Assembly (NCBI GenBank): GCA_963921825.1
Contig: OY997592.1
Span: 58,920,336-58,984,335, forward strand
DNA length: 64,000 bases
Origin: Erodium maritimum
Taxonomy: Eukaryota > Streptophyta > Magnoliopsida > Geraniales > Geraniaceae
Direction: 5' to 3'
Shown piece by piece: positions 3,300 to 37,984 of this stretch. Within the stretch, counting starts at the first letter, position 1, and the number at the start of each line of letters is the position of its first letter. Under the pieces are notes generated by a model that did no database searches, was not told the origin of the DNA, and worked only from the letters and a program-made list of their open reading frames with translations. The position numbers and the translations under genes were made by a program.

Positions 3300-5881
3300 C
3301 ATCTGGGATGGTAAACCCGGACCACGATTGGACAGACACAGAACGGGCCTCCCGAGCTAACCAGTAGGTTTCCCCGTTCGTTGTCCTAGAAATATACTCG
3401 AGTTTAACATCCTCGAGAAAAGATAGAACAGATCGACTACTGACCTAGTGGGGAAAAAATCTGATGGTTCCCCTGGATCAGATGCACTAGGTATTGAGCA
3501 TCACTACGCACGATTACTCTAGAACGAGCCGTGTCCTGGATCCATTGGAGCGTCTGCCAAATTGCCATTGCCTCCGCCATTTCATCCCCGGATTCCCTTG
3601 ACAAGAACCCCTTTGGCCCTCTATCATCCTTCCTTGCGCCGATCTACAAATCTATCCTCATCCGAGTTCACCCTAGTCAGGGAAAGTGGCTCCATCCATA
3701 TTGATTGTAACTCACGTCGGAGGATGAGGGGTCCACCTCATCTGCTTGCTTTTGACTGGGATGGCCATCTTCCTTCGTATACTAGTCACCTCGGCCCAGC
3801 TATGCTGAATGCTGAGTATTATAGCTAGGATGGCTCGTGGTTCCATGTGGTTGTTGTCCCATACCACTCCATTTTTGTCTTTCCATATTTTCCATAGGAT
3901 CATTACCACCCTGCATTTTGTTACCATATCGGGGAGCGCGAATACTAAGGTTAACCAGTCGAACAGAGAATGATGGGGATGAATTGGAACTTGTATACCG
4001 ACCAAATCCCAGACAGCTTGGGCAAACTGGTAGTGTAACAGTAGATGTGATGTAGTTTCCTCCCCAATTTGGCAGACCGGGCAATATAATGATACCGGGA
4101 CATGTTTAGCATGGAGATTCGCCGCTACTTGGAGCGTACCTGATAGAGCCCGCCACAGGAAAATCTTGATTCGAGGCTGAGTGTCTAGATCCCAAATCCT
4201 TGTTCATGTCGCGACTCCCCCCATATAATGACATCTCCCATTTTCTCTAGATAAAGCTATGTATCCTTCTTTGATCGTATATACTTCTCGAACATTATAC
4301 TGCCAAAACCACTTGTCCCTGGGCAGAGGGTTGGGAGATGGGACTTGTAGAATGTCTTCCACTATCTGCTGAGGAAAATTCAGGCGGAGTTTGGGTTCAT
4401 CCCAATTTGTCCCTTGCACTGTAGTCAAGTCCGAGACCATCAAATCCGGAGTAAGGGAAGTGGACAGTGGTATGCTTGGGTCATTTCCTATTAACTATGG
4501 GATACCTTCAGCTAGTGTTGAACGGCCATCCCCGATAGTTCGACGTAACCCTTGGCGAAGGAGTGGTTTGTAGCCTGAACCCCCTTCCATATATGACTTG
4601 GATTGATACCCCCACATGCATTGAGAAAGTCTCATGTCGGGTAGTACCTGAATTTAAAAACTCGGGCCACTAAGCTATCCGGTTGGGTGAGAAATTTCCA
4701 ACCTATCTTTGCTAATAATGCCATGTTCATATCTTTCATGTCTCGGAAGCCCATCCATCCTTCCTTCTTTGGTTGACATAGCTTCTGCCAATCCTTCCAG
4801 ATTACAGGTTTATTACCGCGAGGGGTACCTGCCCACCCATACCGGGGCTAATGCAATATGGATTATTTTTATAGACCCATGTGGAAGTATAAATACACTC
4901 ATCGCATAAATTTACATTTCCTGTAAAACAGATCGAATCATTACCTCCTTACTCCCTACCGATAGCATTTGACCATCCCACGTCTCAATTATCGTGACCA
5001 GGCAATCACATAAGAATTGAAGGCTCTGCCCTTTGCGCATCCCCAACATGTTTGGGACCCCCAAGTACATCGAAGACTGAGAGATTTTCTGTATACCCAA
5101 CAGTGTACAACAAGTGTTTCGATCAACCAAGGGAATGTTGGTACTGAAAAAGTTCAATGATTTGGCCTTGTTGATGACTTGTCCCAACATTTTCCTAAAG
5201 CAAGTGAGTATCTGATGCAGTTGGTCGGGCCTCCTTACTATTTTCCCTGCAGAAGATATAACAATCGTCTGCAAAAAAATTCATGTGAGATTACAAGAGC
5301 TCCCATGGCCATTGAGACCCCATGCAGCGCCCATCCCTTTCTGCTTGTGATAACATGCGAGACAAACCCTCCATACAAAATAAGAATAGGAATGGTGATA
5401 GAGCGTTTTCCTGGCGAATACCCCGGCCTGCCGTAAACGGAGAAGTGTTTTTCCCGTCCGAGGTAATTGTGTACTGGATTGACCTCATACATGCAAGTAG
5501 CAGAGATCTCCATCTTGGCCCAATTCTGAATGCTCCCATCATTTCTAGAATAAAGGACAATTCTACTCAATCATATGCCTTACTCATCTCTATTTTTAAT
5601 GCCATAAATCCATTCGGCCCCTGCGTCTGACGTCTAAGGGCATGAATTATCTCGGACGAAATGAATATATCATCCTAGATGGCTTGCCCAGGGACGAAGG
5701 CTCCTTGGTTGATGGATATAATCGGGTCCAATAATGGATTGATTTGATTGGCAAGGACTTTGGACAGGATTTTGAAAACAACGTTGCAAAGGGCAATTGG
5801 GCGAAGATCTGCAATCTTTCGGGTCGTCACCTTCTTTGGTATCAAGACTAGGATAGTCTTGTTGATCTCGCTATCAATATT
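3300..5881 (-). pseudogene. LINE ORF2, reverse transcriptase and RNase H half (broken)
   Basis: Continuation of the ORF2 remnant. The reverse transcriptase opens with NKTILVLIPKK and DLRPIALCNVVFKI, then GIRQENALSPFLF and the catalytic FADD box (Asp-Asp codons at 5264-5269), but these lie in different frames, so several frameshifts are present. A region of zf-RVT type follows (DKWFWQYN..EVYTIKEGY near 4260-4320, then CPVCQIGEETTSHLLLH near 4050-4085). The RNase H domain begins INMDGA near 3690 and has a stop at 3673-3675. A recognisable DAQYLVHLIQG segment is still readable near 3490. Confidence 0.85.
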
Positions 5882-6829: not shown

Positions 6830-7340
6830 ACAGGGTAAACCATCCAATTGCCCCGCAGGGTCCAGTGTCCAATGCCCCGAATGGGTCCGATAATCAATGC
6901 CCCACAGGGTCCGTAGCCATTGCCCGCAGGCTCGATAACCAATGCCCCGCAGGGTCCATAACCATTGCCCGCAGGCTCAATAACCGATGCCCCGCAGGGT
7001 CCCTAACCGTTGCCCGCAGGCTCAATAACTGATGCCCCGCAGGGTCCCTAACCGTTATCCCGCAGGATCAATAACCGATGCTCCGCAGGGTCCCTAACCG
7101 TTATCCCGCAGGATCAATAACCGATGCCCCGCAGGGTCCCTAACCGTTATCCCGCAAGATCAATAACCGATGCCCCGCAAGGTCTACCAATCAATATCCC
7201 GCAGGATCTACCAAACAATGCCCCGCAGGGTCTACCAATCAATATCAAGCAGGATCTACCAAACAATGCCCCGTAGGGTCCACAATCAATATCCCGCAGG
7301 ATATACCAAACAATGCCCCGCAGGGTCCATAACCAATCAT
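6830..7340. repeat. CCCCGCAGGGTC minisatellite in the solo LTR
   Basis: About 20 degenerate units of roughly 22-26 bp built on AATGCCCCGCAGGGTCC alternating with TATCCCGCAGGATC, so a higher-order dimer of about 45-50 bp is visible. The array lies wholly within the LTR. Confidence 0.85.
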
Positions 7341-16487: not shown

Positions 16488-17233
16488 ATGCTAGAGAGGT
16501 TGTGGGATGATACGGTGGCCGGACCTCACCCGGAACGCGGCCTTGGGCGGCTTTGGAAGATCAACATCTAAGGTAGTAAATAATTAGTCAATTATAATTA
16601 AGACTATCCACAATGGCGTCTGCTGTGTGTCGAATAGGGGTGTTGATTCGTAATTTTTTGGGGGAAAAAGCTCAAAACCCATGAATTGGATTGATTCGAC
16701 CCCATGAAAATTAATGGAGTTGTAGACCGTCGAAAAAAGTCGAAATCCGATTCTCCTATGAAGAATCATCACGTGACCCAAATAATCAAAAATAATTTCG
16801 GCCTACTTTCTCCCACGAGTTGAGCCCACCATTTTTTTTTTCTCATCTATTAGATCTAATCGGTTCAACCTCATTGTAGATAGCCTTAGTGTCACCCGTT
16901 GATAAACAGTAATGTGTAGGGGAAGGAAGCGGGTCGGTGTCCGGTGCAGCGAGCCCGATGACTCCGACGACGCCGACATCTCCGGCGTCACCGCGGAAGG
17001 AGAACGTGTGGAGGACAGTGTTCAACCCAGGTAGCAACCTTGCCACTAAGTCCGTCGGGGCTCAGATCTTTGACAAACCCGCTCAGCCCAACTCTCCCTC
17101 CGTTTATGACTGGTACGCTATTAATTAATTAATTTTCCCTTTAATTTTCCAACAAATCATTATATTATATTTGTGAAATTCGTGTTAAATATGCAGGCTG
17201 TACAGTGGAGAGACAAAGAGCAAGCACCGATAA
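16488..17233 (+). pseudogene. DRM1: DRM1/auxin-repressed family gene with an in-frame stop
   Basis: Dormancy-associated/auxin-repressed protein family: small proteins of unknown biochemical role, induced in dormant or sugar-starved tissue. Three exons in matching phase: 16488-16572 (MLERLWDDTVAGPHPERGLG, the family's conserved opening), 16920-17112 (proline/threonine-rich linker, then RKENVWRTVFNPGSNLATK and IFDKPAQPNSPSVYDW) and 17197-17233 (LYSGETKSKHR and stop). Exon 1 runs into TAA at 16569-16571 just before a good donor (AAG|GTAGTA), where relatives have a sense codon. The acceptor of exon 2 is pyrimidine-poor. The start lacks the usual MVLLEK form. Everything downstream is intact, so this is a recent nonsense allele, an unusual splice, or a sequence error. 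Confidence 0.8.
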
Positions 17234-18727
17234 AGCGTAAGCTGCTGACTTTGAGAATGAGGAGTGGCTTAAATAAATGTTTCCAGGCCCTCCCTTTTCA
17301 CTCTTCAGCTTATACATAAATGTAGGCTTAAGAAGCCAGATTGATTGTTCATAACTGTTTTCATAAATAAGTAATACATTATGACAGTTATGCAATGAAG
17401 AGTAATCTTTCAGATCAAATTACTGATCAATCAATAAGACATTTTATTTCTGGATGGTATTGTAGGATGAATTACTAAAGCATTTTTTTTATTGACGATA
17501 TCCATAAATATTCAGGCATAATGATACTTCACAGTTATTTTGAATAATCAAGCATAGAAAAAGAAAAATTAATATTAGGGGTGGATACGGGGTGAATAAC
17601 TGGACCGGAGCTCTAACCCTTGCATTGGCTCGAAAGATCCCGTTGTTTAGATTTTTCAACCGATGCTGAACACAAGACCCTTATTTTAAATATTTTGATT
17701 ACGGTTCGGTTATTGGTTATACTTGTCACAATTCAAACTTCACTATTCATTCAAATTTTTTGGTAATTGATTGTCAAGATTGTTATAGAGGCACATGCAG
17801 ATGACTGGTCATTAGGAAATAACCAGAAGTTCAATATCTGACAACAACGTCATTTTGTCGAGTGTGTCTTTATCGATGCGTTTACTTGGTGGAAAAGTAG
17901 ATAACACATCACCGAGGAACAATTTCTGGGTCATTCCCCGGTAAAAAACCATCTTGTCGAACCCAATTGTGTGGAACGACAATTATCAATTAGCCCCTTC
18001 TACATACCATTTACCCGAGGACAATCTAACTATTATCCTTGGCTAGACACAAATATTTTTATTGAAACGACAAAAATTATTGAAGCACCGATCTTATGAG
18101 ACATAGGAAAGGGCGAGGGTTTAGCACCCTCAGAAACAAAATAGAACACTGATACCAAACACGGCCTCGAAATAACATAACAAAGCACCGATACCAACAC
18201 GGCCTCGAAACAGGGACACCCAACAAACTGGGACACAAGTACAAATAGTCTATAATACCAGATTTTACAACTGTAAAAAACGAAAAACGAACACTTGTTT
18301 TTTTAATGTTATTTTCTCTTATTATGACTTATAATATATAACCTCGTATTCTTCTAAGAGCATGTACAACGAACCGGCCCATATACTCGGCTCGCGTTTT
18401 TGCGGGACGCGGGCCGTCCCGTTGTGGGACGGCTTTAACGCGTCCCAAGTCCCGCAAAAACGCGGGCCGGGCCGCGTCCCGCGTCCCACGTCCGGCAATC
18501 ACGGGTCGGGCCGAGTCTCGCGTCTCGCGTCCCTTGTCCTTCGGCCAGCCAATGGCTGTGTGCCACACGTCCTATTATTTTTTAAATACGAAAAATCAGA
18601 TTTAAGTAAATATGATTGGTCCACTCAAAATACAAGTCTTACATCCAAGTCTTATTGTAAAACACCCGATATTTTGAGTCCTGAATGCCACTATTTTCTT
18701 CGATCAACATACTAGTTTTATATACGA
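17234..18727. other. Intergenic, no gene seen
   Basis: AT-rich DNA with no supported coding region. It holds a GC-rich patch at 18357-18560 (separate entry). Short open frames here overlap on both strands and resemble nothing. Confidence 0.6.
18357..18560. repeat. CG-rich patch, possible DNA-transposon end
   Basis: A 200-bp island rich in CGCG, GGGACGCGGG and GCGTCCC blocks in otherwise AT-rich sequence, beginning AGAGCATGTACAACG, a start reminiscent of PIF/Harbinger-type MITEs. I did not find the partner end. Confidence 0.35.
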
Positions 18728-18736
18728 GCTTTTCCA
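18728..18736 (+). repeat. Target-site duplication, left copy (GCTTTTCCA)
   Basis: Identical to the 9-mer at 30774-30782. Nine bases is the Mutator-superfamily duplication length. Confidence 0.92.
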
Positions 18737-18737
18737 G

Positions 18738-19648
18738 GCCTTATTACCCAAATGGCCTTTTAGAAGGAAAGTATAATTAAAATAGCCTCCACATTCAATG
18801 CTCTCACCTACCTAGCATCCTCATTAATGACTCTTTCCAACTACCAACATTACCCTCATAGATGATCCATGTCAGCACCCAACTATTTTCTCACTCTTGT
18901 TCCACGTCAGCTTTCGTTTGCCCTGTTGGCGCCAAATCCACGTCAGGAGTCGGTAGTTAATTCGCGCCAAATCCAGCTGAATTGGGGAAATCGAATTTTG
19001 CCCCATTCTCGTTCGCTTCTCCTTCATCCTCGTTTTTCTTCTTCAATTGCTGTTGTCCCGTGCATTGTTTGTCCTCCTACCCGTTGTTTCTTCTTCAATT
19101 TGTCGTGAGAGCTGCTCAATTGATTGTTCCACTGTCATTGAAGGCTGCCCAGAAAAACCCTAGCTAGAGGTAAGTAATTGGAAAGACCTAATTTGTAGAT
19201 TTTGAGCAATATGTATGTTTAAACGCACTTAATGTTATCATGGAATGGTTTTGAAACATATTTCGAGCTAGTATTGCTTCATTCGGACCTCCAATTCGTG
19301 TGATGATGTGGTTCGAGTTCGGACCATGCCGATGATAATAGTTCAGATCGACACGTTCTGGTATGAGCTGTTACCAGAACGGTTTGGCGTTCTGGTTTCA
19401 TGTAAACTAGAACGGGTGTCCATCCGGTATTTTACGTATCAGAATGTAGTATGAATCTGTTATTAAATCATGTATATTTAAGGCTTAACCCCTTTTGGGT
19501 TTTGTTTGAAAATAGTTTGACAAGTCCTTTATGTACAAACAAAGGCTTTTTTGTTTGAAATTGTTTTAAAATCGAGTTGTAAATATTTATAGATGTTTGT
19601 TATGGTAAATTGTAGCTTTATATTGATATGTTCATAATTGTTGTAGGA
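18738..19648 (+). promoter_or_regulatory. MULE 5' leader and probable 5'UTR intron of the transposase
   Basis: No coding region. A likely donor (AGAG|GTAAGT, 19169/19170) and acceptor (TTGTAG, ending 19646) frame a 5'UTR intron that ends three bases before the transposase ATG. The repeated GTTCTGGT/ACCAGAAC words near 19355-19400 could form small hairpins. Confidence 0.5.
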
Positions 19649-22429
<2,781 letters not shown>

Positions 22430-24001
22430 GGCCAGTTTTTATGTAATTGGATTGGGATGGGATGTATCCTGTATTTTATGGTTGAACAATTTGTGCTTGT
22501 TGAGGAACTTGGAATTGGGATGTATGCTGTAGGTTATGAACAATCAATTTGTGCTTGTTATATGAAGAATTGCTTGTTATTTCCGGGGAAATGCTGAATT
22601 TGCTGAATATGAATATGAACATTTGTTTCTTATATGTCTTTTGAATAGTTAAATTCAGGGGAAATGCTGAATTTGCTGTGTGGTGTTCCAGATACTCAAG
22701 ACAGTAACCAACCTAGCAGCCCAAATCGGAATAATGTGTCTAGACTGGCAGTCCAAATTGGAATACTGTTTTCTAGAATGGAGTGTAGAACGCTAATAAC
22801 AATTTCAGACTTTCATGAGAACCTGGATAGTAACAACTAGAAAAGACATACAAACTGAAAAATTTAGTGAAAATCTATAAAAAGTTCTTCTAGATCTAGA
22901 ACATATTTTCTAGAGCAGCAGATTATAGACAAAATGAGAACATAATTGTTGCTTCCCAGAAACACGAGTACAAGGTACAGAACACTAGAAATTGGGTTCA
23001 TTCATTTGTTGCATACAATATTTGTTTTTTTTTACCAATTGTATGAAAGTTTGTATATCCTTCCAAAATAAATAAAAGCAACAATATAAATGAATTAAAA
23101 TGGTTTGTTAAAAAAATTAAAATCTAAAATACGACTTCCATCCTAACAAAAAATAATATACAAAAGCACTTCAAGAAAAATTATCTGACTGCTCCATCAG
23201 GACCACGTTGTCATTGTTAAGTTTGCATGTTCTACATTCTCTTATATTCTATTCAATTTGTTGGGTATATGTCTTTAGAATATTTAATTTCCGGAGAAAT
23301 GCTGAATTTGCTGTGTGGTTTTCCAGATACTCAAGACAGTAACCAGCCTAGCAGTCGAAATCGGAATAATGTGTCTAGACTAGCAGTCCAAATTGGAATA
23401 CTGTTTTCTAGAATGGAGTGTAGAACGCTAATAACAATTTCAGACTTTCATGAGAACCTGGACAGTAACAACTAGAAAAGACATACAAACTGAAAAATTT
23501 AGTGACAATCTATAAAAGTTCTTCTAGATCTAGAACATATTTTCTAGAGCAGCAGATTTTAGACAAAATGAGAACAGAATTGTTGCTTCCCAGAAACACG
23601 AGTACAAGGTACAGAACACTAGAAATTGGGTTCATTCAGTTGTTGCATACAATATTTGTTTTTTTACCAATTATATTAAAGTTTGGATATCCTTCCAAAA
23701 TAAATAAAAGCAACAATATAAATGAATTAAAATGGTTTGTTAAAAAAACAATTAAAATAAGAAAATGGGTGACTATTAAAATGATTTATTAAAGGCAATA
23801 TTAAACTAAACACATTAAAATGGTTTTTAAAGTGAATAGTAAGGCAAACAGACGTTAGTTTAAGTTTTACATCCACCCGGTAGTTAGTTTTTTGACATAA
23901 TCCGTTACTTTGGTAACGACAATATAATTCAACCCAATCCACACGTTTTCAAACAGATTTTATTTGAACATTAAGGCGCGAACGCGAAAATTGTGTTCTT
24001 C
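22430..24001. other. MULE interior between transposase and GRF gene
   Basis: AT-rich, no coding region supported. It contains the transposase 3' flank, two 490-bp direct repeats and several copies of the dispersed GGCAGTTCAGATTGGAAA motif. Confidence 0.7.
22631..23757 (+). repeat. Direct repeat pair of about 490 bp inside the MULE
   Basis: Copy 1 (22631-23122) and copy 2 (about 23264-23757) share the sequence from TATATGTCTTT through GAAATGCTGAATTTGCTGTG, AACTAGAAAAGACATACAAA and GTACAAGGTACAGAACACTA to AATGGTTTGTTAAAAAAA, with few substitutions. About 140 bp of unrelated sequence separates them. Neither has coding potential. Confidence 0.9.
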
Positions 24002-24754
24002 ATGAAGAAGTCGAACGCGAACGCGAAGAAGAAGGTCCTTTGCCACTGTGGATTTGAAACTCCTGTACGAACCTCAAACACGAAGATGAATCCAGGACGA
24101 AGGTTCGTTGGGTGTGGTAATTTCATGGTAAGTCAAAAGCTTAGGGTTTTTCTTTTTTGATTTCGAAATTCCAGCTGAACTGAAATTAGGGTGATCTGAT
24201 TTGGGAAATCTTGCTCAAATTATAGTTTGTTGTTGATTTGGTAAGTCCTGCTGCGATTAGGTATTCCTAATTTAGGAATTGCTGCTGAAATTAAGGTTTC
24301 CTTTTTGATTGATGTGGGAATTGAATTGAAATTTATGCTGAAATTAGGGTTTGTTCTGTTTTTTTGGTAGACTGAAGGAACCAAAAAATGCGATTTTTTT
24401 CGCTGGATTGATGGACCCAAAGTCGAATGTGGGACAAAGTCAGCTGGGAAGGTAGAGCAATTCAACAAAATATTAGACGATAGAGGGCCAATTTACCCAA
24501 TTGCCGTTTTAGAAGATAGAGTTGCAAGGATGGAAGATGGGGAATTGCAATTGCGTGAGACACTGAAAGTTTGTGAACATACAATTGCAAGGATGGAAGC
24601 TGAGCTTTCTATTGTGTTTGAACAACAACAAGATGAGGAAAGGATTCTGAAGCTACAATTGGATTTGGATGCTCAAAGAGACAAAGGCAAAACAGTGATT
24701 ATGTTAGTTGTTGTAGGATTTGTTATCAGTTTTTGGATTAGTAGGTTAGTATGA
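24002..24754 (+). CDS. GRF-type zinc-finger, coiled-coil, membrane-anchor protein (MULE cargo)
   Basis: Two exons in phase, 24002-24127 and 24371-24754 (donor ATG|GTAAGT, acceptor TGGTAG|ACT), giving 169 residues. Residues 12-60 are a GRF zinc finger: CHCG, then NPGRRFVGCG and, across the intron, CDFFRW; GRF fingers bind single-stranded nucleic acid in proteins such as APE2 and TOP3A. A coiled-coil-like segment follows (about 98-145) and a C-terminal hydrophobic stretch (VIMLVVVGFVISFWISRLV) that could be a tail anchor. Small plant proteins with this GRF-coil-TM layout exist (At4g04775-like, from memory) and have no known function. Here the gene lies inside the MULE, convergent with the acidic-protein gene. 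No stops or frameshifts, so it may still be functional. Confidence 0.82.
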
Positions 24755-25213
24755 ATGTATGAATGAATGTACTTGGATAAGTAGCTAGGCCATATTAAGG
24801 GTTGCTTGTAACCAGAATGGCAGTTCAGATTGGAAAATGTTTTCCGGACTAGATTATAATTCTGATACTACAAACAACCAGATTGGCAGGTCAGGTTGGA
24901 AAATGTTTTCAACATAATTACATGTACTAAAACTAAACTGTAAATCATACATAAGGCATAAACTAGAATTCATATTCATATTTGGACAAAGGCCATTTGA
25001 TAAGGCCTACAAAATAGGGATAGTTCACAGATAACAAAAAAAATTACTTCAAAGTCAAACTTCCACACTGAAAAAAAAACATTCCAAAAGCAACAAACAT
25101 GGAACATCTGTTGCTTCCCAAAAGGAGGAGGCCTTGCCCCTGCAAACCCTGAACTGAACTGGCATATTAAAATATAAAAAACTAACTAACTAACTTCTTA
25201 TACAAGAAGTTAG
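24755..25213. other. Spacer between GRF and acidic-protein genes
   Basis: Convergent 3' flanks. It holds two copies of the dispersed MULE motif (24817-24851 and 24881-24910). No coding region. Confidence 0.6.
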
Positions 25214-25843
25214 TTAGTCCCATGAAGGCCAGTTCGAGCCGACACTTTCAGAAGGGTCGGCGGCCGGTAGGTTTGCAGGAACAAACAGGGCGTCATACGG
25301 GTCGTCTTCTTCATCTTCCGGCCAGCCTGGGGCTGGTGCTGGTACTGGTGCTGGTGCTGCTGGTGCTGGTGCTGGGTCCTTCGCCTTCGCCTCCTTCTTG
25401 TTCCCCTCCTTGTCCTTCGCCTTCGCCTTCTCCTTCTTGTTCCCCTCCTTGTCCTCCTTCTCTTGCTCCTCTTCGTCCTCCTCGTCCTCCGAGTCCTCCT
25501 CCTCTTCGTCCTCCTCGTCGTCGGAGTCCTTCTCCTCCACAACCGACCACGGGTCCTCCTCCGACTCGTCCTCCTCGTCTTCGGAGTCCTTCTCCCGTAC
25601 TGCTGGGTCCTCGTCAGGGTCCCCCTCCTCCTCAGCCCCGTAGAAGGGCTCGTCCTCAGGAGCGTCCGAGTCAGACTCCGAACGCTTCCGTTTACGACAG
25701 TCGTCGTCGTCGGAGTCACTGCTGCTGATGTTGGTGTCAGCAGACAGGGGAAAGAGAGGGGGGTATAGGCTTGGTTTTGATTCGTCAAACAACCAAGCCT
25801 CTGGCGAGTTGGGTGGTGGGGATGGTGGTGGTGGAGAGTCCAT
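25214..25843 (-). CDS. Acidic Ser/Asp/Glu-rich protein (MULE cargo), function unknown
   Basis: An uninterrupted minus-strand frame; I favour the ATG at 25843 (MDSPPPPSPPPNSPEAWLF, 209 residues) over the in-frame ATG at 25903, which would add a leader made mostly of a purine-rich tract. Layout: Pro-rich start, SSSDSDDDDCRKRKRSESDSD (a basic RKRKR patch that could be a nuclear signal), a long Glu/Asp run, Lys/Ala/Glu repeats (KEGNKKEKAKAKD twice), a PAPAPAAPAP hinge and a C-terminal acidic DPYDALFVPANLP motif. Antisense frames are compositional shadows. No known family; it resembles acidic histone-binding or chromatin-linker segments only in composition. Low-complexity DNA could also be open by chance, so coding status is moderate. 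Confidence 0.55.
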   Translation of the reverse strand: MDSPPPPSPPPNSPEAWLFDESKPSLYPPLFPLSADTNISSSDSDDDDCRKRKRSESDSDAPEDEPFYGAEEEGDPDEDPAVREKDSEDEEDESEEDPWSVVEEKDSDDEEDEEEEDSEDEEDEEEQEKEDKEGNKKEKAKAKDKEGNKKEAKAKDPAPAPAAPAPVPAPAPGWPEDEEDDPYDALFVPANLPAADPSESVGSNWPSWD

Positions 25844-25903
25844 GGATGGGGGGAGTTGGTTGAAAACGAAAACGAAGAGGAAGAAGAAGAGACCTTTTAC
25901 CAA

Positions 25904-26580
25904 GCAGAATGGATTTTCAGTGTGGGTTGCATGGGTTCTAGATTGGTTTCTTATATAGGCTAGGAAAAGCAGTTACATGATTACTAAAATTTATTTTGAC
26001 ATGACAAGTTGGGTTAAAGAAGTTATTACAAGTGATAATTACACCCATCTTCCAAAAGACTCTTCGGTTCATGTATAGGAATGGCCCTATAACTGTAATT
26101 ACTTTGACAAGACACAATTGTTCACAATCCAATTACAACCGCTTGCCACATAGATTCATTAATTTGAAATGATTATTCTAGAAATATATATTCTAGAATT
26201 CACATACATACTTGTCATATACCTTCTAGACTTCCAAATCATTCTAGAAACGTATGTTCTAGACGGGCAGTTCAGATTGGAAATATGTTCCTAGAATGGA
26301 ACAGAATTAGACTCCGACTGTAAATCTGTCCTCATATGTTCAGTTTCCAAATAAACCTAACGTACAAAATAGTATAAAACCAATTAACAATACAATGCAT
26401 TCAACATAAGGCTAACATTATACTAATACATGAAAGCAGTTTAGATTTAAAACCAATCTTGGTCACCAAAATAATAAAAATCACATCAAAGTGTACAATT
26501 CAAATTACAATCCACCTCAAATATTCAAATTATAAGTCAAAGAAACAGTAAAGTTTTATCCTCGATGATCATATGAAAAC
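25904..26580. other. Spacer between acidic-protein and ULP1-like genes
   Basis: Upstream region of the acidic-protein gene and 3' flank of the ULP1-like gene. It has TTCTAGAA palindromes (for example 26175-26200 and 26243) and one copy of the dispersed motif (26262-26300). No coding region. Confidence 0.55.
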
Positions 26581-29500
26581 TCATTCATGTTTGTAATCCA
26601 AGAACTTCTCGAATTGTGTTGCTATATCCACACACATCTTCAAGCGGTAAACAGAGACATACTGTGGACACATGTAAATAGGGATCGGAAATGATTGGAG
26701 CTCCAGCTCGCAATACTTCAGCGCATAAACACCCGAGTCTCCTCTGCACAATAAATGCAAATTACTGACTACTAAGTAAGGGTAACAGTTATAGAGCAAT
26801 AAAATGTTATAACATGCAAAGTTGTAGAAGATTCCATACCTAAGCTCCGCTTGTTGCAAATCAGACCGCCTTTCACACGTCCATTTGGTGCCCGAATGCA
26901 GTAATTCCGCGTGAAAATTCTTGGCAGCAATGAGAATTTGTGGGAACATCACCACAAAAGGTTCCATCACTGCAGAAAGGGAATTATCCGGAACTGTTCT
27001 ATAGCAGTCATACATGATGAGCTTGCAGAGAGTTACATCTGCCTCCACCATAACCCAATGCTGTGATACTTCGTCCACCAGCAAAGGAAAAAATATTTTG
27101 TCACAACCTGCCCATTCCTTACCAGCAAAGATCGGAAGATCGCCCCTAACGTATTCCATTAAGCGATCTGCTACTTGGGGGTTCTCACTTTGAGTCCATG
27201 CCATGTGCCCTTCCTTAACGGCATCTGCAAATTCTGCGTCCAACACCACAGCATTCTGTGCATAGTGCTTCTTGCAACGCCCCTGCCGCTTTCTAATTTC
27301 AAACAGGCAATCATTCATGTGCTGCATACATGAAAGTAATTTTATTAAATTTAAATTAAATTGAAAACAATGCAAATAATTAAGGTTCCACCTTACCCTT
27401 GCATTCAGTTTTTCGTTTGACCCGCTGAGAGTTGTGTAGTAAGACAAGTTGACCTCTTCGTAAGGTGTTTTTGGGATTTCCTCTAAGGGTATCTTCTTCC
27501 TCTTCAGTTTTGCGATCACTTCCTTATACACCTGGGTTGTGAATTGATCAGGCATAAGGAGAGGGTTCAACTTCTCTAAGTTCCCTTTAAGTCTCCTCTT
27601 CTTCTCCTTCGTTGCTTCGCTGTCCCCCTCGTGTATAACAGGAGCCGAGACTTTCGTCGAGCTTGATTCTTCTCTCTTCCGCTTGCTTGTGCCAGGATTC
27701 TTTGTGGCAGCCCCCTCCTCTTTGTGGCCCTTGTGGCAGACTTCTTTGTGTTAGACTTCACCTTTTTTGCAAGACGCTTACTTCTAGTAACTCTAGCTGG
27801 AATTTCCTTGGCCTTTTCAACAGCAGCCGCCTCATGGACCTCTTGGTTCACCTCAACTACTTCCTTCTCCACGGACCGTTCCTTTTCGTTCACATCTTCC
27901 CCTTCATTGCCTTCCTCTTCTTCATTACCTTCTTCATTCGCTTCTTCATTAACTTCTTCATTCACATTTCCTTGTTTGTTCACTTCCACTACAGCGGGCA
28001 CACCTTCTTGTCCAGCTGCCACTCCTTTTTCTTCTTCTTCTTCTTGTTTGTTCACTTCCTCTTCAACGGCTGATCCAGTTTTTAAAACATCAACTTCCTC
28101 TCCATCCTCTCCACCATTGGGAACTCCCACTTCTTCTTGGTTCTCATCCATTTCCTCCTCGGGCACTTCTTCTCCTTGGTTCACTTCAACTCCAGTGGCC
28201 ACACCTTCTTGGTTCAACTCCTTCTCACCAACATCCCCCGTCACATTATCGAACATGTCCATCTCATCTTCTTGGTTCTTCTGTTTGTCCTGCCCAGGAA
28301 ATGATGCTTCAGAACCTGCTCCGAAGTGGTTTGATGGACTGTCTTCATGTTTTCGGGCTGACAGAGCTCCCATGATCGCCTCAAATTGTGTCTTCTGCAC
28401 TTCCAACACACTTTTCACATCAGCCTGCACTGACAGGACCTGGCTCTTTAGCAGCTCAATTTGCTCCATGACAGCCTTGTAAAGTCCATCATCGGACTGT
28501 GGGTGTGACGTAGGAACCTGAACCTCCTCTGGTGCTGCTGGTGGAGTTGGCGGTGCCACATGGACGGTCTGATCTTCTGGAAATGAAACAACAAAGTCTT
28601 CCTCCATCTTTTCCACCATGTTGTCCAACAACGGATTTGGATCTTCTTCTTCTTTTTTCACGAATTCTTCCATCCAAGGCTGCTTCTTTTCTTCCTCAGT
28701 GGGGACCAACAGACTTACGATTTCCTGAGCACAAAAACGAATAAAATTTAATACGTGGAATTTATATGAAAACGCATATATTATATGAAAATTAAATTTC
28801 TAACCTCCGGTGAGCTTTTTAAGAGTGCTTCCCTAACAGCACTGTAGGACGGATTTCTACTCCACGTTGTCTTCCATTTTAGAATTCTAGGCAAGTCTAC
28901 GCCGAAGTCTTCACGAATTGTTGCGAACTTCGTTGCTAATGATGGTATGCATTCAAATGCAAGTACCTACGGCAAAAGATACAAATCATAAGAGACATCA
29001 TGTACACTACGATATTAAAAAAATATTTGTGTGAAGGATTAGTTACTTACCGTGAGAGGAAGGAAGAAGCCGGCATATGTCATACTACTCTCATTTCTTG
29101 GGTTCTTCTGAGCCACCAACATTTTATTTCTCAACTTCTTTACTTTTATCTGTTTTAGTAGATAACTGAAGGACAGAGTACCCCAAGGGTATGCGTAAAA
29201 CATCTTCAAGTTATCCACTAAAGCCAAATACTTGCGATCCAGCTTATGGAAGTGTCTGTCCAATGGCATCAATACTCCCCCGATGATCAACAGCAAGCAA
29301 ACCCTAATAATATCCCAATTAGGCTTCGTAGAAGGCCTAACCTCCATTTGTTCGCCAACCAACTGGGTCAATTTCTTCTCTAAGGTCAACATACTAGCAT
29401 CTAGTGTCGGGAAGTGTTTCGAGGACACAACTTTGGACTTCATTTGTTTTTTAAAAAGTTTATCATCGGGAAAAGCTCCACACTTCAGCCCCGATATTAA

Positions 29501-30341
29501 ACAGAATTCCTTTAAAGAAAATCTGATCGGTCTTCCTTGGACCAAGAACCAGATTTCGGACGACCGGTCCAAGTCAATTTGTCGAACTAACAGAGACCAA
29601 GAAATTTGACAAGAATTGTCACCACTCGGTTGGATGTCCATCAAATGACCAAATGGAGCTTTTTTAAGGGTACGAAGGTGGATTTCATCATTACTTAACC
29701 TCTCAAGTTCTCCTTTGATGAACTTAAAAGTTCCCCCTACATGACTCTTCACTGATATCTTGCAATCGAAATGTTCACTCTCGGCCAAAATAGGTTTAAA
29801 CTCCGACAGCTCAATTTGGACTAATCGTGCATTATCTAGGCTTGCACTTGAACTTTCACCCTCATCATAACTTGGAATTTCTCCGTCGAAGGAAGTTGAC
29901 CTAGAACTTTCATTTTCTTCACCATTTGAGTTTTGCCTACTCTCTAGGGATGATAAACTTGCCTGGTAGGGTGCAAACAAGTAATTACAATAACAGAAAA
30001 CAATTCATTTCAAATTGAACTGCAAAACTATAAACACACTTCATTTCAAATTGAACTTTAATTCCCAGATTGCCTACCATAACCGCCATATATTTAATGA
30101 CCTAACAATCCATTCTAGAATATCAACTCCCAGATTGCGAGCCAGAACACCCCCTGATTTTACGACCTACATATCCCCTAAACCGTATCTAAGCATAACG
30201 AATAAACCCCCCTAAATTTCTACATTCAAACAGGAATTCAACGTAGCTACACGACAATTACACACAATTTCACCCAAATTTCAGCCTATCTAAGCACAAC
30301 CAGGGAATGGAAACCGAGAACAGTTAGGGCTTACTTACCAT
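26581..30341 (-). pseudogene. ULP1-like cysteine protease gene of the MULE, catalytic Cys replaced
   Basis: SUMO-protease-like gene, the hallmark cargo of Kaonashi MULEs. Proposed exons in transcript order: 30341-30339 (ATG at the exon end), 29962-29051, 28966-28805, 28724-27397, 27321-26840, 26743-26581. The N-terminal part has a DUF1985-type region (SSEIWFLVQGRPIRFSLKEF, GLKCGAFPDD). A Glu-rich repetitive linker with a KRLAKK/TKRR basic patch follows. The C-terminal domain has the protease His (SQHWVMVEADV) and Asp (LIMYDCY), but the position of the catalytic Cys, usually DCG, reads GDSGVYALKY, so Ser. One frameshift near 27705 (AAGAGGAGGGGGCTG) separates linker and protease frames; a single base restores it. 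Likely inactive as a protease. Confidence 0.85.
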
Positions 30342-30903
30342 CTCAGCTCCGACAATACTTGTAGCTCGTGGAGAATGGTCGGAAACTGGAACTCGATCCT
30401 TCGAGCTTGCTGGAGAAGAACGGAGACGATTTCTTGCTGAAGATCAGTTGGGTCGAAAGTTTCTGGGTTTTGGGGGGGTTTTGGAGTCGAACAAGAAGAA
30501 GAAGAAAATAGAATTGAAGGAGGGAAAAACGACACAGCTTAATATAAGTTGTTTCAATTTGAAATTCAAGCTGACTAGGATAATTTGAAGAGCTGACAAT
30601 GATAGTTTGAAGATAACAAGACAATGTTGTTGAAGTGCTAAAAGGACACAAATGTAATCTCATGCATTTTACTCATAAAAAGAAAATCAAAATAAAAGAA
30701 ATAAGTTCAGCTAAATTACGGATTCTGTCACTGTAAGACTTTGCTAGAAAAATACCATTTGGGCAATATGGCCGCTTTTCCATTGCACATGAACATCGTT
30801 GAGTTAATTTGGTTAATGTCTCGGTCTGTGTTCGTCAAAAGATAAGACCCCAAACCGAACCTCCGATAGCTTCGCGCCTAATTGCTCCTCCGCCGTCGCT
30901 CAC
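30342..30903. other. MULE right arm and YBEY 5' region
   Basis: 30342-30773 is the ULP1-like gene leader (an overlapping minus-strand frame at 30335-30535 probably is 5'UTR) and the terminal repeat. 30783-30903 is what remains between the MULE and the YBEY ATG. Confidence 0.5.
30774..30782 (+). repeat. Target-site duplication, right copy (GCTTTTCCA)
   Basis: Directly follows the terminal GGCC of the MULE; identical to 18728-18736. Confidence 0.92.
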
Positions 30904-33900
30904 ATGGCGAGTGCAATTATACGCGCCACCCGTCCCCCTCTCCTCACCCCCTCCGCCACCGTCTCGTCTCTCCCCCTTCGTTCACTTTTAGCCTTTTTTC
31001 CTTCTCCCTCTGCTCATTTCCATGATTCTGCTGCTTCTTCTCCCTTTAAACCCTTGCTGTTTGGTCGGGGATTTCACGCTTTGCATCGACTAAACGAGAG
31101 GCCTTGGGGGGCGGCCGGAAGAGTCTACGCGGCCGGGAGAGGGTTCGGGAATTCTCCGAGGCAGCCGTCGCAGAAGAAGAAGCCCAAGGTTCCGGAGCTC
31201 GATGTTGCTATCTGCATCGAGGAAAGCTTGCCGGATGACCCTGAAATCTCGGTACTATCTCACTCTCTCTACTGCTATATCATTCGGATTTTAGGATTCG
31301 TTAATGTAATTTTTATTGTTGTTACATAGCTAAAAATAAAGGAATGGGTGAGGATAGAAATGTGATATATTGACTTGCAAATTTTTTCGATGTTGTTTTG
31401 TTGAGGGAATTGTTGGCCAGAAACAATGAGATATGGGCAAGTGTCAAAATGTAATATTGGCAGCTCTGCTGAATTTAAGTTTTCAAATTTGTATATCATA
31501 TCAAAACATGCATTTGTTGATGGGAGACTGATTAATATAGGTTTCAAATGATTGTTGTAGCATTGAGGATAGGTGGCTAATTGCCAATTGTTTTAGAAAT
31601 TGATTGGTCATTCCAAACCAGTGAGGAAATTAAGTCATGGAACTATGTTGAAGTGAAAATCATGCTTGGAGTTGCTTTCGTAATCTGCAAGCTTAGTTTT
31701 ATTATTTTCCTACAATTAGAAGAGAGATAGGAAACTCTTTCAGTGTTTCTCTGCTACTTTTATTGCAGAACCTATATTCTTAATACAACTATAATATAAG
31801 CAATATTTTTCATGTGGTAGAGTATTGCTGAACTGCTGCAACTCAGTGCTCCAATGGCAATGAAGTTGGCTTTTGACTGTTTGAAAGATTCAACATATAA
31901 AACAAGAGATACTGCCATTGATGATCTGGGTGGGTATGAAAGTATTGAGTTGTCTGTACTGTTTTGCAATGATGAATTCATACGCCAACTGAATAAAGAA
32001 TGGAGGGGCGAGGACCATGCTACTGATGTTCTTTCCATGTCTGAACATATCCCAGGACTCAAGCTTCCAGTCGTAAGAATTCAATCTTTCAACTGAATAA
32101 TTGTCTTGTAAGGTGAACAAAGTTCCACTGGGTTCTTCTTTCTAAAATTTTTCTATCTTCTGTATTTATGGGCAGCTTATGTTGGGTGACATCGTAATCT
32201 CTGTAGAGACAGCTGCAAGACAAGCAGAGGAAAGAGGGCACACAATTCTTGACGAGATACGCATCCTCTTGGTTAGTTGTGTAATCTTTCGCTAATGAAC
32301 TACTTTTATATAGCATAAGTCATACCCCATGTTTTGTTACATATAGAGTGATCTTCTACAAGACACCTATTACAAAAGCTTAAGGTACTAGATGAGCACA
32401 TTGTAGCAGAATACACACTTGTTAAATTTAAGTTCTTAGAGTATACTTGGTTTGGTTCAGATAGCTTATTTAGGGAATTTGAAACCTGCATTGCTTTGTG
32501 TGTGCAGGTTCATGGACTGTTACATCTTATGGGATTTGATCATGAAATTAGTGAAGAGGCTGAATCAGAAATGGAGAAGGAAGAGGAACGTCTTCTAGAG
32601 AGTCTTGGGTGGAAAGGGAAAGGGCTCATTCAAAGTGCTTATGATCCTGAAACTGATATAAGTCATGTGGGCAGCCAAGATGGTAAGTTCACCTCTTTCC
32701 AACCAATTGAATGGAGGCCGACTCTTTGTTGGGGGGATAATTGCAAAAAGGGCCGTGTGGTTGATACTTTTTGCAAGTGGGCACCATGTACTAAAAAGTG
32801 TTGCAAGCTGTGTCTGTTTGGTTTAAAATGATGGTACTGTTAGTCACGGTGTTAAAAAAACAAAGGAAAAATACAATTTTACCTCCATAAAAATAATAGA
32901 ATTCAATACTTCTGAATTTAAAAATATATATTTTGTACTTTTCATTTTTTTTCATTCAAGTGAAAATTAATATTTTTTAATTCAAGGGAAAAATTGGTGT
33001 TTTCAAAAAAATGGGAAGTGACGTGTGCACGTGACCATATTTACCCTTTTCCCGCTAAACTTAACTGACTGCAAAAACAATGAATCGTTAGGTACCAGCT
33101 TGCAAAAGATGTCAACCACACGGCCTTTTTTTGCAATTACCCCTTTTTGTTGTAGAGATCTTCCTATAGGATGCATCGTGCATGCTTAGCTTTCATTTTG
33201 ATGAGACAAAAGAAGCTGTATATAAGTTTGCTGTGAGACAATCTTATGGTTAATTTGTTAAAAGACAGGAAGAAAGAAGGCAGTCTCCGGTTTTATAGAC
33301 CAAAGTTCAAGTACATCTTCTGTGATATGGATGGTGAGGTTCCACATATAGTGTGCTCATGTTTTTTACTTGTTATATTTTGTTCTGTTATCACCTGATC
33401 ACGTTACTCTCGTTAATGTGCAAGGTACACTCTTAAACAACAAAAGTCAAATTTCTAAAGTAACCGCAGCAGCTTTGAAAGAGGCCTCATCAAGGGGACT
33501 AAATGTGGTGATAGCTACTGGAAAAGTATGCCTATTACGTTGTTAACATTATCTAACATCTCGGTCAGCTGGAATATTGTTTTTCCAAAATGTCGCTTTC
33601 AACTCTCCCCCACACTTTCTTTCTGTAAACCTAGCTTGTAAATGTTGCTTATTTTAGCAAGAATCTCTTTCTCAGATATTAATTTGAGCCTTGGAACAGG
33701 CCCGGCCAGGGGTCATAGAGATTATGAAGATGGCAAATTTAGCGGGTAAAGATGGCATTGTTTCAGAATATTCTCCTGGGGTTTTCTTGCAGGTTTATCT
33801 TTCCCCCTCTATCCTGTCAATACTTTTGCTGGCTGCTTGTAATGACGTTGTTACATAAATTGAATGTCAGTTTTAGCTGAATGTCAACTGTGATAGTACC

Positions 33901-37944: not shown

Positions 37945-37984
<40 letters not shown>

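Follow-up and report, generated by a model that had tools for sequence, protein, structure and literature searches.

A multi-copy Mutator-like element of Erodium maritimum with a serine-substituted ULP1-like domain, a GRF gene and an acidic-protein gene

The stretch of Erodium maritimum DNA analyzed here (64,000 nucleotides of contig OY997592.1, referred to as the window) carries a Mutator-like element (MULE) of 12,037 bp at positions 18737-30773. A transposase gene and a GRF zinc-finger gene on the forward strand are followed in it by an acidic-protein gene and by a gene combining DUF1985 with a ULP1-like Peptidase_C48 (C48) domain, both on the reverse strand. On balance, we lean towards reading this sequence as a recently amplified, broken copy of a KIU/VANC-type MULE, with a pseudo-protease, a DUF1985 protein targeting TCTAGA, an acidic accessory and a GRF gene as an addition. 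So read, it is a KIU/VANC-type MULE whose protease site is naturally disarmed and which adds a candidate motif, a GRF gene of one branch and an acidic gene that probably occurs in more than one family. Families in which the protease residue is gone and the rest of the active site is retained offer a natural test of the function of the Ulp1 domain; should they still evade silencing, cutting would not be what matters. Furthermore, the element supplies a candidate target motif as well as two additional genes, one of them probably shared with another family.

The DUF1985 and C48 parts of the ULP1-like gene were both recognized in domain searches, with expectation (E) values of 1.6e-29 and 3.4e-14, respectively. 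Active proteases of the small ubiquitin-like modifier (SUMO), of the ULP/SENP type, employ a Cys nucleophile, whereas this position is occupied by Ser in 20 of the 20 copies of the element that have C48 exon 6. Ser was also found there in two sister families, B (RGDSVVY) and C (MGDSGIY), each represented by the one copy that was read (L047, 7 kb, and L048, 6.9 kb), while the catalytic His, Asp and Gln are invariant across the alignment of the three families. Searched against PDB, a C48 profile of the three families gave SENP1 as its best match (E 7.3e-6), and the family Ser aligned with the SENP1 nucleophile, which is Cys in 2ckg and Ser in 2g4d, the latter a mutant. A phmmer search of the C48 domain against PDB returned only methyltransferases, at E 0.011 or worse. 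Given the Ser in all 20 copies, the label "SUMO-protease-like" that an earlier note on this DNA had attached to the gene is doubtful. Ordinary protease activity has likely been lost, and provided that the one copy read from each of families B and C is representative, this happened long ago; the substitution suggests that the C48 protein binds rather than cuts. An alternative is that the domain is still an active protease using a Ser nucleophile, in other words an ordinary mobile deSUMOylase with a changed residue. The retention of His, Asp and Gln in three families and the uniformity of the Ser, which is more order than decay requires, could be taken in its favor. However, a retained pocket also fits binding, and SENP1 with the corresponding substitution (C603S) has been described as catalytically inactive (PMC3532225). 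We consider an active Ser protease unlikely. A structure prediction of the DUF1985 exon from its single sequence was also obtained, but its mean predicted local distance difference test score was 36 and it was not used.

The three intergenic regions of the element hold 39 CTAGA in 2768 bases, counted on both strands so that each TCTAGA counts twice. The resulting density of 14.1/kb compares with 1.44/kb in the coding parts and 1.58/kb outside the element, and the element ends and introns are not enriched (2.17/kb). The z score of the top k-mer exceeded the maximum of 300 shuffles for 5-mers (14.4 vs. 8.1) and for 6-mers (16.3 vs. 10.7); a higher 6-mer z score was reached in two of 32 control windows (CCCCCC and CCTGCG), and no control window contained more than 8 CTAGA. 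Density ranged from 11.0 to 17.1/kb across 18 copies and was 6.2/kb in L050, a member whose GRF is about 74% identical, compared with 0.86/kb and 1.01/kb in the copies of families B and C. In addition, a 17-nt repeat occurs seven times in the three intergenic regions, always on the forward strand, and nowhere else in the window. The motif is thus concentrated in non-coding regions, with intergenic region 2 as the exception, and differs between related families, as would be expected of a VANC-type system, and the TCTAGA arrays in two of the three regions are a candidate target motif. The motif and the 17-nt repeats could instead serve another factor or have arisen as a side effect of tandem duplication, an explanation fed by the duplication of about 635 bp inside region 1 and by the lack of TCTAGA in region 2. 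However, 27 CTAGA were observed vs. 2.8 expected after removal of the second tandem unit, region 3 is rich in CTAGA and lies outside the duplication, and the ends and introns stay unenriched; the low densities in families B and C are also what fast-changing VANC targets would show. We therefore hold another factor or a by-product to be a minority possibility. In the family B copy, a short intergenic tandem array containing TTAATGTGT was seen at L047:4655-4707, and it is a possible counterpart of TCTAGA.

The copy searches were run against the 763-Mb genome that contains the window. The left end yielded 184 candidates, of which 40 were scored and were 96-100% identical; besides the window's own, all 39 start within 7 bases of the left repeat. 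The right end gave 179 candidates, 40 of them scored. Downstream of the 40 left ends, the acidic gene was present at at least 32, the right end at at least 29 and both at at least 24, all of these being lower bounds. The element belongs to a recently amplified multi-copy family, and 21 copies (that of the window and 20 others) were compared in detail. Private divergence averages 0.88% per copy (17 copies) and, at a substitution rate of 7e-9 per site and year, corresponds, as a rough estimate, to about 1.3 million years. When the flanks were joined without the element, 40 of 463 candidates were scored and 22 of 39 paralogous rows crossed the junction with a single copy of the duplicated bases, revealing related empty sites in the same genome; these 22 rows end 8-10 bases beyond the junction, where the repeat seems to stop. 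The left flank (18587-18745) is itself part of a dispersed repeat, and its matches stop 8-10 bases past the insertion point.

The earlier note had claimed a ULP1-carrying MULE with both ends, a perfect 9-bp target duplication and four genes, and all of this is borne out. The terminal inverted repeats (TIRs) GGCCTTATTACCCAAATGG and GGCCATATTGCCCAAATGG match at 17 of 19 bases, GCTTTTCCA flanks both ends directly as an exact 9-bp duplication, and the transposase, GRF, acidic and ULP1-like genes all lie between them. Duplications of MULEs are given as 8-11 bp (PMC6446971). Exact duplications were found in 17 of the 21 copies, being 10 bp long in 14, 9 bp in two and 8 bp in one, so that 10 bp is the family norm and the 9 bp of the window copy the rarer form. 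Among the other four copies, two have a duplication with a single mismatch (one judged by eye from the flanks), one has no duplication, and one lacks the right end in the stretch examined.

The word "complete", also used in the earlier note, holds for the structure of the window copy, but not for its genes. The transposase is assigned to the MULE type by its DBD_Tnp_Mut (E 2.9e-11), Transposase_mut (4.6e-6) and SWIM (2.2e-8) domains; an in-frame TGA breaks the MULE domain in two, leaving both halves below the cut-off, and the frame changes in exon 4 of the ULP1-like gene. The window copy is thus structurally complete but genetically broken. In other copies the frames are partly open: the transposase is a single frame over 860 codons in two of 21, ULP1-like exon 4 is open along its full length in six of 21, and open frames are retained for GRF in 13 of 19, for the acidic gene in nine of 18 and for the DUF1985 exon in nine of 20 copies, a pattern that fits random decay after insertion. 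A pooled ratio of nonsynonymous to synonymous rates (dN/dS) of 0.85 for the transposase was inflated by misaligned copies (identity 0.65-0.87 in three) and was not used. The poly-Asp run of the transposase is encoded by a TGA-type trinucleotide repeat at 20305-20486 (60.7 units), and a scan of IMG/VR returned one locus only, matching just the stretch around this run.

Turning to the two additional genes, GRF was present in 19 and the acidic gene in 18 of the 21 copies; both were missing in two copies and the acidic gene alone in one. They are thus regular parts of this MULE, as the earlier note had proposed, without being present in every copy; copies lacking them, the outcome that the note had named as speaking against it, were seen in a minority. 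A reading of the two as host genes flanked by MULE ends through chance does not survive the comparison of copies, since the same genes recur at the same spacing in many dispersed copies, and we see practically no chance for it. The GRF domain (PF06839) was recognized at E 1.6e-7, with 31.7 bits against a curated cut-off of 25.9. A protein search of the genome with GRF exon 2 gave 111 matches, all 146 candidates being scored, and with the acidic protein as query 459 candidates were obtained, of which 150 were scored and 128 matched; among these matches, rows of low identity may include unrelated acidic runs owing to composition. For linkage, 104 of the 111 GRF rows and 105 of the 128 acidic rows were used, the rest being second pieces of the same loci, together with 120 of 150 scored DUF1985 rows (the lowest-scoring 30 dropped) of 841 candidates. 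At 75 of the 79 GRF loci of at least 64% identity the acidic gene lies downstream on the opposite strand, within 1 kb in 64 of those 75. Conversely, among the acidic loci, GRF was present at 75 of 82 with 50% identity or more vs. one of 23 at 36-49%. Of all 105 acidic loci, 67 have a scored DUF1985 on their own strand no more than 14 kb away, mostly at 3.3-3.5 kb.

The sister families give some indication of the order in which the genes were acquired. The transposase of the family B copy is 62.7% and its C48 part 52% identical to the window family, and an acidic frame about 40% identical stands at the same position and strand, retaining PEDEPFSG and EEGDP. Its E value is inflated by composition, and the likely homology with the acidic gene of the element rests on place, strand and these two stretches. 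GRF was not found in this copy at E 0.01, and nothing convincing appeared at E 10, whereas the family C copy has neither gene. Together with the rarity of GRF at low-identity acidic loci, this shows that the four genes do not form a fixed set. It appears that the acidic gene is probably the older part, since a likely homologue occurs in family B without GRF, and that GRF was gained by one branch, or lost outside that branch. In the family C copy, three small frames that look alike by eye (L048, reverse strand 3599-3892, 4327-4749 and 5257-5622) occupy the place of the GRF and acidic genes, on the same strand as each other. We also considered GRF and the acidic gene as one nested transposon; this is unsupported, given the opposite strands of the two genes, the 17-nt repeat flanking both and the acidic gene without GRF in family B, a judgement made without a dedicated search for nested ends.

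It could be argued that GRF and the acidic gene are passengers resembling those of Pack-MULEs, with no role in transposition. In line with this, no GRF was found in the one copy read from either sister family, constraint on GRF is not seen within the family, three of the 21 two-ended copies lack one or both genes, and another GRF clade with many copies (25 loci, GRF identity 44-63%, e.g., C8:31656524-31656841) has the acidic gene at one locus and a scored DUF1985 at one. This clade may represent a different element or the origin of the GRF gene. However, family B has a likely homologue of the acidic gene in the corresponding position and on the corresponding strand, in-frame indels separate several copies, a hint of selection is present at the acidic-gene ends, and GRF and the acidic gene occur together at nearly all GRF loci of high identity. 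The loci of the six best GRF-domain matches did not reveal a close parent either, four of five loci containing pieces of 32-57% identity and the fifth none. We regard mere passengers as a minority possibility.

Regarding selection, the pooled dN/dS for the ends of the acidic gene was 0.31 (0.21-0.53). Differences shared by at least two copies arose in ancestors still able to jump, while private ones mostly followed insertion. At these conserved ends, 27 synonymous and 21 nonsynonymous changes were shared, vs. 17 and 43 that were private (p 0.0055), and the same contrast gave p 0.06 for the transposase (18 of 21 copies used). In a CpG test at codon boundaries, the acidic gene was biased to the silent side (17 to 4), whereas the transposase (28 to 28), DUF1985 (4 to 8), GRF (0 to 6) and C48 exon 5 (5 to 3) were not. 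Shared differences peak at the acidic gene, with 180 per kb at 25537-25936 (17 of 21 copies), and 98-118 per kb over the 800 bases preceding 25537. The tandem region has 90 per kb, and the remaining blocks stay at 15-60 per kb, the last 37 bases excepted. Old alleles or exchange between lineages could explain the peak. The acidic proteins also form two groups that only partly match the GRF length groups, the elevated stretch as a whole being 24737-25936. Overall, the family is too young for a strong selection test. Joint action of all four genes, which the earlier note suggested, is hypothetical, and within the family GRF bears no mark of purifying selection.

How would such an element work? 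DUF1985 is described as a domain of VANC proteins (PMC5735166), and KIU genes as members of the VANC type that include a Ulp1 domain and whose action is directed at non-coding motifs (PMC13317346). Following this precedent, the DUF1985-C48 protein should act as a VANC-like anti-silencing factor, binding the TCTAGA-rich DNA of the element and lifting host silencing. With Ser in place of the nucleophile, the C48 part of the protein would hold SUMO or a related modifier uncut, like the Cys-to-Ser mutant of SENP1. The acidic protein contains a basic patch and long acidic runs, which are features of nuclear chaperone-like proteins, and it may be an old accessory of the lineage, perhaps as such a partner. 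GRF fingers bind single-stranded nucleic acid, and the GRF protein would be an addition of one branch, with a nucleic-acid-binding finger on a coiled coil and, judging from its hydrophobic C-terminal stretch, a membrane anchor; it may thus sit in a membrane. A more specific version is that the TCTAGA-bound DUF1985 protein holds SUMO-modified silencing factors through its Cys-to-Ser C48 domain and so blocks silencing, with the acidic protein as an old nuclear partner and a membrane GRF protein, possibly of the nuclear envelope, added in one branch; to this we assign a low probability only. The way in which VANC proteins lift silencing after DNA binding is called an open question (PMC5735166), and the function of the Ulp1 domain in such elements is called unknown in a 2026 review (PMC13317346).

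Several observations weigh against the KIU/VANC-type reading with its TCTAGA-targeting protein and accessories. The p value of 0.0055 at the acidic-gene ends is the sole one below 0.05 in ten contrasts and would fail a strict correction; shared and private changes gave p 0.20 for the whole acidic gene, 0.70 for GRF, 0.82 for DUF1985 and 0.79 for C48 exon 5, and the pooled dN/dS of GRF was 1.10 (0.62-2.34). Concerning the motif, TCTAGA is absent from the region between GRF and the acidic gene, the 7-mer z score (23.5) is barely above the shuffle maximum (20.9), raw 8-mer and 10-mer counts did not exceed the shuffles, and in the 2.5 kb read from L049, which also belongs to the GRF lineage, CTAGA reaches no more than 0.80/kb. 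Finally, families B and C contribute a single copy each, and the likeness to KIU/VANC proteins of other plants is drawn from published descriptions.

Table 1. Features of the element and its borders in the window.
Feature	Coordinates	Strand	Basis
Target-site duplication, left copy (GCTTTTCCA)	18728..18736	.	sequence comparison of ends
Left TIR, 19 bp, weak similarity out to 36 bp	18737..18755	+	
MuDR/MULE transposase frame, in-frame TGA at 21416-21418, long poly-Asp run	19649..22429	+	domain search
Intergenic region 1: 24 CTAGA in 1572 bases, four 17-nt repeats	22430..24001	.	
Tandem duplication of ~635 bp inside intergenic region 1	22621-23116 / 23256-23748	.	
GRF gene exon 1, first part of zinc finger	24002..24127	+	gene model and domain search
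GRF gene exon 2, zinc-finger remainder, coiled-coil-like part, hydrophobic C-terminus	24371..24754	+	
Intergenic region 2: two 17-nt repeats, 2 CTAGA in 459 bases	24755..25213	.	
Acidic-protein gene, 209 aa, isoelectric point 4.05, single exon	25214..25843	-	gene model
Intergenic region 3: 13 CTAGA in 737 bases, one 17-nt repeat	25844..26580	.	
ULP1-like exon 6, Ser at catalytic Cys position	26581..26743	-	
ULP1-like exon 5, catalytic His and Asp	26840..27321	-	
ULP1-like exon 4, acidic linker, frame shifted in window copy	27397..28724	-	
ULP1-like exon 3	28805..28966	-	
ULP1-like exon 2, DUF1985	29051..29962	-	domain search
ULP1-like exon 1, start codon	30341..30343	-	model by splice signals
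Right TIR	30755..30773	-	
Target-site duplication, right copy (GCTTTTCCA)	30774..30782	.	

Beyond these features, a start codon stands at 30904, about 120 bases downstream of the element, and a scan of 17000-33000 found no tRNA. Elsewhere in the window there is a tandem array with units of 23 and 46 bp (6844-7337) and a run of 37 C (37946-37982). Genome-wide, every one of the 150 scored DUF1985 candidates was above the cut-off, and the C48 search gave 439 candidates, of which 150 were scored; ULP1-type elements look very abundant in this genome.

Among known systems, Kaonashi (KI)/KIU of Arabidopsis is likewise a MULE with a ULP1-like gene reverse to the transposase (PMC2528002), and its link to VANC (PMC13317346) is matched here by a gene uniting DUF1985 and C48. 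Kaonashi/KIU elements lack a long TIR; the repeat seen here is short, with 17 of 19 matching bases, but shows weak similarity out to 36 bp, which does not clearly place it in the non-TIR class. They are described with three coding genes (PMC13317346), whereas the present element has four, including GRF and the acidic gene; no relevant account of GRF genes in such elements was found in the open-access listings searched. Moreover, Arabidopsis KIU C48 domains are described as intact (PMC6117577), while the domain here is whole but carries Ser for Cys. The ULP1-MULEs of grapevine, melon and rice also have a ULP gene downstream of the transposase, in either orientation, and a GRF or acidic gene is not mentioned in the section consulted (PMC2528002). 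VANDAL21 (Hiun) and VANDAL6 share with our element a DUF1985 protein beside a MULE transposase and a short non-coding motif with tandem repeats (PMC5735166; PMC10398659). Their motifs are YAGTATTAY or AGTTGTCC/AC, as opposed to TCTAGA(A), and, unlike their VANC proteins, the DUF1985 protein of our element has a C48 domain. As for that domain, SENP1 C603S is the closest parallel considered, with Ser at the nucleophile position in an otherwise retained active site; the SENP1 mutant is human and engineered, while the Ser described here is natural and belongs to a transposon.

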